A program made the translations under genes and the position numbers. A stretch of 64,000 nt of DNA from Phaeobacter gallaeciensis (lineage in GTDB: Bacteria > Pseudomonadota > Alphaproteobacteria > Rhodobacterales > Rhodobacteraceae). How positions within the stretch are numbered: the stretch's first letter is position 1; each line of letters begins with the position of its first letter. Location of the stretch: positions 868,001 through 932,000 of the forward strand of contig NZ_CP015124.1 of assembly GCF_001678945.1 (NCBI RefSeq), written 5' to 3'. The notes under the pieces are model-generated. The model was not told the origin of the DNA. It was given only the letters and a program-made list of their open reading frames with translations, and did not search any database. Of this stretch, positions 2,532 to 62,626 are shown piece by piece.

Positions 2532-2532
<1 letters not shown>
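1699..2532 (-). CDS. Secreted protein with FG-GAP/VCBS-like repeat segments, function unknown
   Basis: The 277-residue protein begins with a long basic N-terminus and a hydrophobic stretch (VLCMWLLWGTSLSIGSASA) that reads as a signal peptide or anchor with cleavage after SASA, so it is probably periplasmic. The middle has FG-GAP/VCBS-type segments: LVDLSLDGRADAVMVVE and ISAADLDDDGHVELAYID, each with Asp-rich loops that in this class bind calcium in a beta-propeller. Two cysteines near the C-terminus (RNCENG and ALTCE) may form a disulfide. The ATG at 2532 overlaps the ferredoxin stop by one base (TGATG), so it is cotranslated with that gene. No enzymatic motif is visible. Confidence 0.7.
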
Positions 2533-2891
<359 letters not shown>

Positions 2892-2964
2892 TTATCCAAG
2901 GCCCCGCCGCTGCACCAGTGCAATCTGCCCTGACCCGGCCCAGGGGTGGACTTTGACGATGCAT

Positions 2965-2979
2965 GTTCTATTCTTGTTC
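2965..2979 (+). promoter_or_regulatory. LexA SOS box (alphaproteobacterial GTTC-N7-GTTC)
   Basis: GTTC at 2965-2968 and GTTC at 2976-2979 are separated by exactly seven bases (TATTCTT). This is a perfect match to the direct-repeat LexA operator of alphaproteobacteria. A TTGACG at 2953-2958 is a possible -35 element, which would put the operator inside the promoter of the gene starting at 3009. The same operator type normally sits in front of imuA-imuB-dnaE2. Confidence 0.75.
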
Positions 2980-3008
2980 CTAAATTTCCAAACCACCAAA
3001 GCGTCACG

Positions 3009-3422
3009 ATGACACCCGCCCCACCACAGAAAAGCCGCACCGCCCCCGGATGGCCTCGCCCGCCCGCCTGTCTGCAGGCCGACCGGTTGGAGCGGGTGCC
3101 GCAACAGGCCCGCGTCACGGTGGCCGGGCTGGTGATCCTGCGCCAGCGCCCCGGCACCGCCAAAGGGGTAATCTTCATCACGCTGGAGGATGAAACCGGG
3201 GTGGTGAATGTCATCGTCTGGCGCAAGGTATACGAGGCCTACCGCCGCGCCGTCATTTCCGGGCGGCTTCTGCGGATCACCGGCCGCCTGCAACGCGGCG
3301 ACGGTGTCACCCATGTGATTGCCGAGGGGATCGAGGATATCTCGGGCATGCTGGACATCCTGCTGAGCCGTCAGGGACGCAGCGAGGATCCGGCCTTTGC
3401 GCCAGTGCAGAAAATGGACTAA
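3009..3422 (+). CDS. Solitary OB-fold protein resembling the C-terminus of error-prone polymerase DnaE2
   Basis: The 137-residue protein has an OB (tRNA_anti-type) nucleic-acid-binding fold in residues about 33-110. The stretch VAGLVILRQRPGTAKGVIF followed by TLEDETGVVNVIVW is the signature of the OB domain at the end of DnaE2/ImuC, the mutagenic polymerase of the SOS response. The polymerase, PHP and palm domains are absent, because the opposite-strand ferredoxin begins just upstream. A perfect LexA box lies 30 bp upstream. An in-frame GTG at 2946 would cover that operator, so the ATG at 3009 is preferred, although no strong ribosome site is visible. It may be the remnant of a deleted imuA-imuB-dnaE2 cassette or a small SOS-induced DNA-binding protein kept by selection. 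The intact frame favours retained function. Confidence 0.75.
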   Translation: MTPAPPQKSRTAPGWPRPPACLQADRLERVPQQARVTVAGLVILRQRPGTAKGVIFITLEDETGVVNVIVWRKVYEAYRRAVISGRLLRITGRLQRGDGVTHVIAEGIEDISGMLDILLSRQGRSEDPAFAPVQKMD

Positions 3423-3473: not shown

Positions 3474-4082
3474 ATGATCAGCGCCCCCTTGCCGAGGCTC
3501 CAGATACGACAGCTGAAACGCCCGTCGATGCCGCCCCAGATAAGACATCTGGCAGGGTTGCTGCGGCGGCCCCTGCTCCGGTCCTCGGTCATCCTTCTGA
3601 CATTCGCAGCGCTCAGCGCCTGTACACCGGCCAGTGCTCCCGACACCGGGGCTGATGCGCACTCCCGACCTGCAGCCCCGCCCGGCGCGGCGCCAGACAG
3701 TTGCTGGGACCGCCACGTCAGCCCCGCCATCATCGAAACGGTAACTGTCCAGGTTTTGGCCGAGCCGGAACAGCGCGACGCCGAGGGCAAACTTATCCGG
3801 CCTGCCGTGTTCCGCACCGAAACCCGGCAGGACATCGTGCGCCCGCGCACCGAAAGCTGGCTGCAGATCACCTGCCCCGTCGACATGACGCCGGACTTCA
3901 TCGCCTCGCTGCAGCGCGCCTTGGCCGTGCGGGGGCACTACAAGGGCAGCGTCACCGGCAAGCTGGACCGGCCCACGCGGCAAGCGATCCTGCGCTATCA
4001 GCAGCGACACGGCCTTGAGAGCCACATTCTGTCGCTGGACAGCGCCCGCCGTCTGGGCCTGATCGCGATCCCGAAATCGTAA
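3474..4082 (+). CDS. Lipoprotein with C-terminal peptidoglycan-binding domain
   Basis: The 202-residue protein has a basic N-terminus, a hydrophobic run (SVILLTFAALSAC) and a lipobox LSAC with the lipidated Cys at residue 50 if the ATG at 3474 is used. The C-terminal 60 residues fit a PG_binding_1 fold (DFIASLQRALAVRGHYKG, then LDRPTRQAILRYQQRHG). It is therefore probably an outer-membrane or periplasmic lipoprotein that binds the cell wall. The N-terminus before the signal is unusually long; an ATG at 3528 gives a more usual signal peptide, but the 3474 start has the better purine-rich leader. Two cysteines in the middle (SCWDR and ITCPVD) could form a disulfide. Confidence 0.75.
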   Translation: MISAPLPRLQIRQLKRPSMPPQIRHLAGLLRRPLLRSSVILLTFAALSACTPASAPDTGADAHSRPAAPPGAAPDSCWDRHVSPAIIETVTVQVLAEPEQRDAEGKLIRPAVFRTETRQDIVRPRTESWLQITCPVDMTPDFIASLQRALAVRGHYKGSVTGKLDRPTRQAILRYQQRHGLESHILSLDSARRLGLIAIPKS

Positions 4083-17906: not shown

Positions 17907-19219
17907 CAGTCAGCAAACGGGTCCGTCACCAGAATGGTGTCGTCCCGCTCCGGGCTGGTGGAGAGAAGCGCAACCGGGCATTCGATCAGCTCTTCCACGC
18001 GTTTCACGTATTTGATGGCATTGGCAGGCAGGTCGTTCCAGCTGCGCGCGCCTTCGGTGGATTCGGACCAGCCGGGCATTTCCTCGTAGATCGGCGTGCA
18101 GCGGGCCTGCTGGTCTGCCGCGGTCGGCAGGTAATCCAGACGTTCTCCGTCCAGATCGTAGCCGGTGCAGATCTTCAGCGTCTCGAACCCATCCAGAACG
18201 TCCAGCTTGGTCAGCGAAATACCGTTGATGCCAGAGGTGGCACAGGTCTGGCGCACCAGACAGGCATCGAACCAGCCACAGCGGCGTTGACGGCCGGTAG
18301 TGGTGCCGAATTCATGCCCGCGGGTGCCAAGGCGTTCACCATCCGCATCGGGTTTGCCATCGGCGCCCAGCAGTTCGGTCGGGAACGGGCCTTCCCCCAC
18401 GCGGGTGGTATAGGCTTTGACGATGCCCAGAACATAGTCGATGGACCCAGGCCCGATACCGACACCCGTTGCCGCTTGACCTGCAATCACATTGGAGGAG
18501 GTCACGAAAGGATAAGTGCCGAAATCGATATCCAGCAGCGCGCCTTGGGCCCCTTCGAAGAGGATCCGCTTTCCGGCCTTGCGCTTTTCGTTGAGAACCT
18601 TCCAGACCGGCGCCGCATAGGGCAGGATCTTGGGAGCGATCTCTTTCAGCTGCGCGATCAGCGCGTCGCGGTCGATCGGGTCGACGCCAAGCCCCTTACG
18701 CAGCGGATCGTGATGCTGCAGCGCGCGGTCCACCCGGGCCTCCAGCGTGGCTTCGTCTGCCAGGTCGGCAACGCGGATGGCACGGCGGCCAACCTTGTCT
18801 TCGTATGCCGGGCCAATGCCACGACCGGTGGTACCGATCTTGGTACCCTTGCTGGCGGCTTCTTCGCGGGCGCGATCCAGTTCACCGTGCAGCGGCAGGA
18901 TCAGCGGCGTGTTTTCGGCGATCATCAGCGTCTCGGGCGTGATATCGACGCCCTGTTCCCGCACGGTTTCGATCTCCTTGATCAGGTGCCAGGGATCAAG
19001 AACCACGCCGTTGCCGATGACCGACAGCTTGCCACCACGCACAACACCAGAGGGCAGCGCGTGCAGCTTGTAGACCTTGCTGTCGATGACCAGCGTATGG
19101 CCGGCGTTATGGCCGCCCTGAAAGCGCGCGATCACATCGGCGCGCTCGCTCAGCCAGTCCACGATCTTGCCTTTTCCCTCGTCGCCCCACTGGGCGCCGA
19201 CTACGACGACATTGGCCAT
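17906..19219 (-). CDS. purA: Adenylosuccinate synthase
   Basis: The 437-residue enzyme joins IMP and aspartate with GTP in the first committed step to AMP. Motifs: the GTP loop [18 protein letters not shown], the IMP site [35 protein letters not shown], and the C-terminal TKLDVLDG guanine-recognition site. Length is standard. DUF2842 follows directly. Confidence 0.95.
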
Positions 19220-60631: not shown

Positions 60632-62626
60632 TCACTGGTCGAGGAAGCTGCGCAGCTTGCGGCTGCGGCTGGGATGTTTGAGCTTCCGCAGCGCTTTCGC
60701 TTCGATCTGACGGATCCTTTCGCGGGTCACGCTGAACTGTTGACCGACCTCTTCGAGCGTGTGGTCGGTGTTCATGCCAATGCCAAAACGCATCCGCAGG
60801 ACGCGTTCCTCGCGCGGGGTGAGCGAGGCCAGAACCCGGGTGGTGGTTTCCTTGAGGTTTTCCTGAATGGCGCTGTCCAGGGGCAGCACCGCGTTCTTGT
60901 CCTCGATGAAATCGCCCAGTTGGCTGTCTTCCTCGTCCCCGATGGGCGTCTCGAGAGAGATCGGCTCCTTGGCGATCTTCATCACCTTGCGGACCTTCTC
61001 AAGCGGCATCTGCAGCTTTTCAGCCAGTTCTTCCGGCGTCGGCTCGCGGCCGATCTCGTGCAGCATCTGACGGCCGGTGCGGACCAGCTTGTTGATCGTC
61101 TCGATCATATGCACAGGGATACGGATGGTGCGCGCCTGATCCGCGATACTGCGCGTGATCGCCTGACGGATCCACCAGGTTGCATAGGTGGAGAACTTGT
61201 AACCGCGGCGGTATTCGAACTTGTCCACCGCCTTCATCAGGCCGATGTTGCCTTCCTGGATGAGGTCGAGGAACTGCAGGCCGCGGTTCGTGTATTTCTT
61301 CGCGATGGAGATCACGAGACGCAGGTTCGCCTCGACCATTTCCTTCTTGGCCTGACGCGCCTCTTTTTCACCCTTCTGCACCTGCTGCACAATGCGGCGG
61401 AATTCGCTGATATCGAGACCGACATACTGGCCGACCTGCGCCATGTCAGCGCGCAGTTCTTCCACCTTGTCGGTGGAGCGTTCGATGAACATCTGCCAGC
61501 CCCGCCCCGGTTTCGCGGACATATCCGCCAACCAGTTCGGATCCAGCTCGCGGCCACGGTATTCCTCGACGAATTCGCGACGGTTGATCCGGGCCTGGTC
61601 AGCCAGCTTCACCATGGCGCTATCGATCTGCATCACGCGGCGGTTGATGCCGTAAAGCTGGTCGATCAGGGCTTCGATACGGTTGTTGTGCAGGTGCAGA
61701 CCATTCACCAGTTCCACGATCTCGGACCGCAGCTGTTGGTAGGTCTTTTCGTCCTGCGCGCTAAACGATCCGTCCTCATTCAGGGTGGCCGAAATCCGGC
61801 TGTCCTGCATTTCGCTCAGCTGAGCGTAATCCGAGGAGATCTGCTCCAGCGTGGTGAGCACGCGATCCTTGAGCGCAGCCTCCATCGCAGCCAGGGACAT
61901 ATTGGCCTGTTCGTCCTCGTCATCGTCGTCATCGCTGGCAATCGGATTGCCGTCGGCGTCGAGTTCGGGCCCCTTGTCTTCCTTGGCGGGTTTGGCGGCA
62001 TCGGACACCGCACCGGTGTTCACCACCGGTTCGGCAACTTCGCCCTCTTCGTCCATCTGGTTGCCAAAGGTGGCCTCAAGATCGATGACGTCGCGCAGCA
62101 GAATGTCTTCGGACAGGAGTTCGTCGTGCCAGATCGTGATCGCCTGGAAGGTCAGGGGGCTTTCGCAGAGGCCCAGGATCATCGTATTCCGGCCGGCTTC
62201 GATCCGCTTAGCGATGGCGATCTCGCCTTCGCGGCTCAGCAGTTCGACAGAGCCCATTTCACGCAGATACATGCGGACCGGATCATCGGTGCGGTCCAGT
62301 TTTTCCGCAGCCGCCCCGGCCACCGCGACTTCGCGATTGGATTCGGTCGTCACCAGTTCGGTCGAGCCTTTGTTCTGCTCTTCCTCTTCGGCCTCTTCAT
62401 CCTCGATGATATTGATGCCCATTTCGGAGAGCATCGACATCACGTCCTCGATCTGCTCCGAGCTGACCTGATCCGGCGGCAGGACCTGATTGAGCTGATC
62501 GTAGGTGATGTACCCCTTCTCGCGGGCCTCCGCGATCATCTTCTTGACCTGGGCCTGGCTCATGTCCAGAGAGATTTCGGCTTCCTGATCGTCAGGTTTG
62601 CGGTCGTCGGTGTCTTTGGCGGCCAT
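60632..62626 (-). CDS. rpoD: RNA polymerase primary sigma factor RpoD
   Basis: The 664-residue protein is the housekeeping sigma-70. Region 1.2 reads [20 protein letters not shown]; a long acidic non-conserved insert follows. Region 2 has [20 protein letters not shown] and [20 protein letters not shown], region 3 [15 protein letters not shown], and region 4.2 the [26 protein letters not shown] 62626 has GGAG upstream. It follows dnaG by 132 bp, the usual alphaproteobacterial order. Confidence 0.96.

Follow-up and report, generated by a model that had tools for sequence, protein, structure and literature searches.

A solitary OB-domain gene behind a LexA-type operator in Phaeobacter gallaeciensis points to a two-gene DnaE2 polymerase

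Why should the C-terminal OB domain of the mutagenic polymerase DnaE2 stand alone behind an SOS-type operator? The question is raised by a 137-codon open reading frame (ORF) in a 64,000-nucleotide stretch of the Phaeobacter gallaeciensis genome, which was analysed as a whole and is called the window here. The initial annotation of this stretch proposed that an internal deletion had fused an SOS promoter to the polymerase tail. The present analysis shows instead that the DnaE2 of this genome consists of two complementary genes, and we consider it likely (a probability of roughly 0.76) that the window ORF provides the OB domain as a separate, trans-acting subunit that would be co-induced with its partner by DNA damage. 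The computed features that carry this interpretation are the complementary halves, the conserved operators, a near one-to-one co-occurrence, the clustering of the split form, purifying selection and the motifs at the protein ends.

The 137-residue protein aligns with positions 942-1039 of the DnaE2 model NF004225 (1047 positions) at 111.6 bits, while the best DnaE1 model reaches 33.8 bits, far below this score. NF004225 also matches all 39 OB proteins compared, namely that of the window and those of 38 of the 80 relatives described below, with the lowest best E-value. The domain is thus assigned to the C-terminus of DnaE2 ahead of DnaE1 and other OB families, in agreement with the initial annotation. 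As a single domain scoring 111.6 bits against a model cut-off of 939, the ORF does not qualify as a complete DnaE2, and the SSB family PF00436 gives 14.6 bits on the protein, under the Pfam gathering threshold of 26. The AlphaFold2 model displays an OB fold with a mean predicted local distance difference test score of 80.7, the blocks of residues 21-120 lying at 84-96 and those of residues 31-110 at 86-96. The ratio of nonsynonymous to synonymous substitution rates (dN/dS) is 0.06-0.22 in five within-genus pairs and 0.02-0.25 in twelve further chosen pairs, where pairs share members and a thirteenth extra pair was uninformative owing to too small a divergence. The gene is under purifying selection, and the earlier suggestion that it has been retained holds. 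An alternative start at the upstream in-frame GTG at 2946 is unlikely to be the real one, because the operator would then fall inside the gene.

The operator is an exact match to GTTC-N7-GTTC, GTTCTATTCTTGTTC, at window positions 2965-2979, which leaves a gap of 29 bp to the ATG at 3009. The number of such matches in the 64 kb is within chance, since three are found where 1.43 would be expected, and at least three occur in 23 of 100 shuffled sequences; the other two, at 18185-18199 and 62018-62032, have GC-richer spacers. The count alone is therefore not significant, and the operator is considered real because it is conserved in relatives. A scan of public genomes confirmed at least 376 OB loci, from which the best 80 were kept. 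An exact operator is present in the 330 bases before the OB match, or at the match, in 78 of these, the exceptions being L034 and L050; the flanks of the related loci contain 13 operators per 893,609 bases, from which 0.0048 per locus is predicted. The promoters of the 78 relatives share a TTGC-like −35 element beginning 18 bases before the box and a TATnTT −10 element within it. With an operator at the promoter that is conserved in relatives, the OB gene classifies as a putative member of the alphaproteobacterial SOS (LexA) regulon, and its regulation by LexA and its induction by DNA damage are predicted from these sequences. In many relatives (L011-L090) the ATG follows only a few bases past the operator, as compared to 29 in the window gene, which suggests that their mRNAs may be leaderless or nearly so.

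The rest of the polymerase is found elsewhere in the same genome, which is a single contig of 4,061,725 bases at 99.98% completeness. The search of this contig with NF004225 returned four places, including the window ORF. The DnaE2 body gene, located ~0.94 Mb from the OB gene, gives a match at 1,807,635-1,810,517 that covers model positions 7-940 at 1219.4 bits, above the cut-off of 939. A third place spans the model at 582 bits, below the cut-off, and is taken to be the replicative DnaE1, while the fourth is one chance-level row (E 0.26). The body protein has 964 residues, with the C-terminal end ...LRAHPVALLRHLLTPEG, and comprises the DNA_pol3_alpha, finger and HHH_6 domains together with a PHP match slightly under the Pfam cut-off. 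The Pfam scan found no OB domain in it, while one full-length relative has all five domains. Model positions 7-940 and 942-1039 together cover the enzyme once, and the two genes co-occur across genomes, with the exception of the genome G049 discussed below. Intein families were found neither on the OB protein (Pfam, E ≤ 1) nor on the body (E ≤ 0.001), and the broken ends are short; there is thus no sign of covalent rejoining.

The two partners of DnaE2 are also separate genes, ImuA with a profile match at 1,200,652-1,201,074 and an exact operator upstream, and ImuB with a match at 1,775,246-1,776,961, ~31 kb from the body gene, and an exact operator just upstream. The body, OB, imuA and imuB genes therefore occupy four separate places. 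The initial annotation was right that imuA, imuB and the rest of dnaE2 are missing from the 64-kb window. Its proposal to look for an intact imuA-imuB-dnaE2 cassette elsewhere in the genome has a divided outcome, as all the parts are present, but they are dispersed and the body lacks the OB domain.

The split is not peculiar to this genome. In a survey of 150 family genomes, drawn evenly at a completeness of at least 90%, 65 carry an OB-less DnaE2, 68 a full-length one and 18 neither over the cut-off; G033 has both, with the split genes located on its largest contig and a complete cassette on what appears to be a plasmid. A solitary OB, defined here as a match in a frame of less than 420 residues, with part of the loci opened, occurs in 62 of the 65 genomes with an OB-less DnaE2 and in none of the 67 full-length-only genomes. 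The locus is unassembled in the three misses: a contig of G062 ends 222 bp from fdx, the ferredoxin gene that neighbours the OB gene, and G042 and G146 are without an orthologous fdx match. Apparent splits were excluded in G011, where the two ends of a contig interrupt a full DnaE2, and in G087, G142 and G091, whose pieces end in a full-length tail, while G081 was scored as full-length, its OB lying in the same 1129-residue frame as the body. ImuB is present in 68 of 80 genomes searched (with a partial or weak match in G146 and G086), and the 12 without it all lack DnaE2 and OB; ImuA is present in 71 of 75, the remaining four all lacking DnaE2. An assembly or frameshift artefact was considered and rejected in view of the single-contig, 99.98% complete genome and the OB-less DnaE2 in 65 of 150 family genomes. 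In a survey of 387 genomes of the class, 198 have an OB match, and the matches listed outside the family are in frames of ~1000 residues or longer, except for nine; judged by frame length and contig position, the nine short cases are contig ends or broken frames. The one of the nine whose locus was opened is in G405 (L241), a one-contig genome of another family, where dnaE2 lies in adjacent pieces broken just before the OB, probably by a frameshift.

These results bear directly on the deletion proposed earlier, which would have joined the SOS promoter to the tail of DnaE2 and left either a vestigial product or one acting as a dominant competitor of the polymerase. Such an event would account for an SOS operator next to a DnaE2-derived OB domain. 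We dropped it because the remaining DnaE2 survives elsewhere in the genome as an OB-less gene of its own. The low dN/dS and the presence of the solitary gene in many genera argue in the same direction, and the role of a competitor is disfavoured by the absence of solitary OB genes from the full-length-only genomes. The locus itself offers a further argument. The fdx gene is present at 79 of the 80 related OB loci, within 600 bp in 76 of them, and was searched for in 29 of the 67 full-length-only genomes, its locus being obtained for 28 (G019 excepted). No OB match is found there in 27 of the 28 and no exact operator within 400 bp upstream of fdx in any, while pgb or degP adjoins fdx in 24; the fdx locus of full-length relatives is thus not an imuA-imuB-dnaE2 cassette. 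Taken together, a deletion remnant is very improbable. An OB-free fdx site in full-length genomes is what would be expected if a solitary OB served a purpose only in the company of an OB-less DnaE2. At the fdx locus of G005 (L242, 2139-2258) lies a decayed relic of a solitary OB, 40 residues at 53% identity, in a genome that carries two full-length DnaE2 genes.

On the basis of these results, the following scenario can be proposed for the two-gene DnaE2. The ancestor of the clade would have had an undivided DnaE2 gene, whose OB domain would then have become independent at the fdx locus, with a LexA operator for itself, and would have been lost from the polymerase gene. When DNA damage inactivates LexA, all four genes, for the OB protein, the OB-less body, ImuA and ImuB, would be switched on, and the 137-residue protein would join the body non-covalently, perhaps with its WxxP-containing N-terminus and the body's LTP end as contacts (see below). 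Bound in this way, the OB protein, presumably through its affinity for single-stranded DNA (ssDNA), would give the body the nucleic-acid-binding domain needed in translesion synthesis, and mutagenesis would then be expected to depend on it.

It is also relevant to consider how strictly the genes would be expressed together. The 5′ regions of 44 of the 65 split bodies were opened (L191, a full-length gene truncated at the end of its contig, was dropped). Thirteen have an exact operator near the start, 29 a one-mismatch operator of the GAACN7GAAT type, which mostly starts 26-31 bases before the start codon, and two (L195 and L196) have none. The body of the window genome belongs to the one-mismatch group. 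The imuA gene has an exact operator in 18 of the 20 loci opened, and for imuB the operator was examined in the window genome, where it is exact. One could thus imagine a two-key switch, in which the split permits different timing of the subunits and error-prone synthesis starts once the last of them appears. The one-mismatch operators of 29 of 44 bodies, compared to exact ones at 78 of 80 OB and 18 of 20 imuA genes, favour such a device, while the 13 bodies with exact operators speak against it, as does the fact that operator strength is here taken from the consensus only. We regard it as rather unlikely; it is an extension of the two-gene interpretation, not an exclusive alternative to it. 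A broader formulation, that of an obligate multi-gene translesion polymerase with four dispersed damage-controlled genes, unequal operators, a coincidence gate and a WxxP/LTP docking pair, falls in our estimate a little short of even odds.

Several points count against the interpretation of the OB protein as a DnaE2 subunit, and they are given here and in the following two paragraphs together with the evidence they qualify. All of the best 80 loci are short ORFs apart from any polymerase frame, but they were ranked by similarity to the window OB and hence favour solitary forms. With a single apparent origin of the split, moreover, the co-occurrence counts do not represent independent events, and as the genomes are related to one another, the Fisher value computed from these counts overstates what they can show. 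Three genomes, G049, G059 and G143, have a solitary OB without a full body match. The clearest is G049 (7 contigs, 100% complete), where the OB with its operator (L222), ImuA and ImuB are present and no DnaE2 body was found; this is either a recent loss of the body or a hint of a second role of the OB protein. The latter would be in line with an OB protein that has parted from DnaE2 and taken on an SOS task of its own, for example as a small ssDNA-binding protein or in partnership with ImuB or RecA, a possibility to which the generic nature of the fold, resembling many nucleic-acid-binding OB domains, lends itself. It is difficult to reconcile with the lack of solitary OB genes in the 67 full-length-only genomes and with the decayed OB of G005, whose DnaE2 copies are full-length. 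In addition, G049 is the sole clear case, G059 being ambiguous and G143 listing a body fragment. We therefore consider an independent task improbable. Another deviating case is the OB of G079 (L227), which has no operator, is not at the fdx locus and retains a DnaE2 tail. This genome combines an OB-less body (L196) with an OB whose long low-complexity N-terminus precedes the DnaE2-like C-terminal tail, and the pair possibly represents an early stage of the split. Four bodies likewise retain a tail resembling that of full-length DnaE2; the presence of this tail both on bodies and on the G079 OB, which has its own copy, suggests that the split may have proceeded through duplication followed by complementary loss.

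The phylogenetic evidence differs between the two halves. In a DnaE2 tree built without the OB domain (94 sequences, quick search), a branch with a Shimodaira-Hasegawa-like approximate likelihood ratio support of 99 separates the 43 split rows from the remaining ones. The evidence from the OB domain (112 columns) is less clear: the first OB tree needed two label changes, forced by starred branches, and none of 200 bootstrap OB trees showed a single change. A single solitary-OB group is not rejected (approximately unbiased test, p 0.67) only after L226 and four long full-length rows are removed. The split seems to have arisen once. L226 and its partner body L192 (G086), each with an exact operator, are a highly divergent split pair and occupy the longest branch in both trees. 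The pairwise distances of OB and body correlate with 0.81 over 38 genomes (0.62 without G126 and G148), those of OB and fdx with 0.37 (0.17), and the partial OB-body correlation is 0.77 (0.60), where fdx, being short and slow, is a weak control. At the protein ends, a WxxP motif stands exactly 30 residues ahead of RQRPG in 77 of 85 solitary rows versus 0 of 52 full-length rows (each set including two repeats of other rows), and 43 of 44 split bodies end in L(T/S)(P/Q) directly after an HPxxLLR-type motif, versus 0 of 50 full-length proteins. The data in which the two motifs were spotted also served for the counts, and part of their conservation is due to common descent; we regard them as candidates for docking elements. 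Two bodies (L164 and L181) and one OB protein (L145) end in RTxxWD-like sequences (RTDIWD, RTEMWD and RTETWD) on C-termini that otherwise look unrelated, which could be a short interaction motif or chance.

Finally, the scattering of the genes cannot be attributed to the split. The genes imuA, imuB and dnaE2 lie together in each of the five full-length cassettes opened, with examples on plasmids of Dinoroseobacter shibae, Cereibacter azotoformans and Sulfitobacter pontiacus, where the first gene is annotated as a hypothetical protein and its identity as ImuA was read from place and sequence. In the full-length genomes G007, G035, G026 and G029, in turn, the imuA match and dnaE2 are on different contigs, and an individual exact operator lies near the start of each of the full-length dnaE2 genes L119, L120 and L216. 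A separation of imuA from dnaE2 thus also occurs with full-length enzymes and is not a consequence of the split. The operators of L119, L120 and L216, together with the imuA genes found elsewhere in G007 and G035, suggest that the cassette was already broken up when the polymerase gene was split; dispersal may have been the earlier event.

The features of the locus are collected in Table 1.

Table 1. Coordinates (window positions) of the OB gene, its upstream elements and its neighbours.
Feature	Position	Strand	Basis
Solitary DnaE2 OB gene (putative subunit), 137 aa	3009..3422	+	intact ORF (ATG at 3009, 137 codons, stop 3420-3422), profile matches, purifying selection
OB fold PF01336, residues 36-111	3114..3341	+	Pfam E 1.2e-13; AlphaFold2 model
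WxxP motif, WPRP, codons 15-18	3051..3062	+	30 residues before RQRPG
LexA operator GTTC-N7-GTTC	2965..2979	+	exact match; exact in 78/80 related loci
Predicted promoter TGGACT-N16-TATTCT, −10 element within LexA operator	2947..2974	+	inferred, read from sequence
2Fe-2S ferredoxin gene (fdx), divergent neighbour	2532..2855	-	PF00111
PG_binding_1 protein gene, next downstream	3474..4082	+	PF01471; present at 39/80 related loci

Polymerases in two pieces have precedents. Naturally split archaeal family-B polymerases assemble from their halves without an intein; they belong to an unrelated polymerase family, and we know of no SOS control over them. The halves of the split cyanobacterial DnaE are rejoined by trans-splicing. 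That enzyme is likewise a C-family polymerase in two genes, but no intein family was found on either half here, and the break point and the polymerase class are different; its split by an intein is mentioned by Timinskas et al. (PMC3919608).

The closest systems are the full-length DnaE2 (ImuC) cassettes, which share the polymerase family, the total set of domains, LexA-type operators, ImuA and ImuB. They differ in that here the OB domain has a gene to itself at a distance of ~0.94 Mb, and the genes of body, ImuA and ImuB lie apart as well, although some full-length genomes also have dnaE2 apart from imuA. According to the accessible part of PMC3919608, several DnaE2 sequences are without an OB domain and cassettes may be contiguous or split; that part reports no separate OB gene, taxonomic pattern or operators. 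In P. inhibens, imuB and dnaE2 are in one operon, as stated in the available portion of PMC10883770, unlike the ~31 kb between imuB and the body in the window genome. The LexA sites of D. shibae are listed in PMC6473078, whose main text, in the portion available, mentions neither OB-fold, dnaE nor imuB. A published report of a DnaE2 split into body and OB was not found in our searches of the open-licence literature.

DnaE2 drives damage-induced mutation in many bacteria, and to our knowledge the contribution of its OB domain is not settled. Since the OB domain is naturally separate in this clade, it can be deleted, titrated or restored while the polymerase gene stays intact, and its role is thus open to direct testing. 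The split would offer an account of DnaE2 genes that seem to be OB-less, and would represent a polymerase subunit born by fission with a regulatory site of its own. Searches keyed to the intact imuA-imuB-dnaE2 cassette would accordingly misjudge the SOS mutagenesis system of such bacteria.
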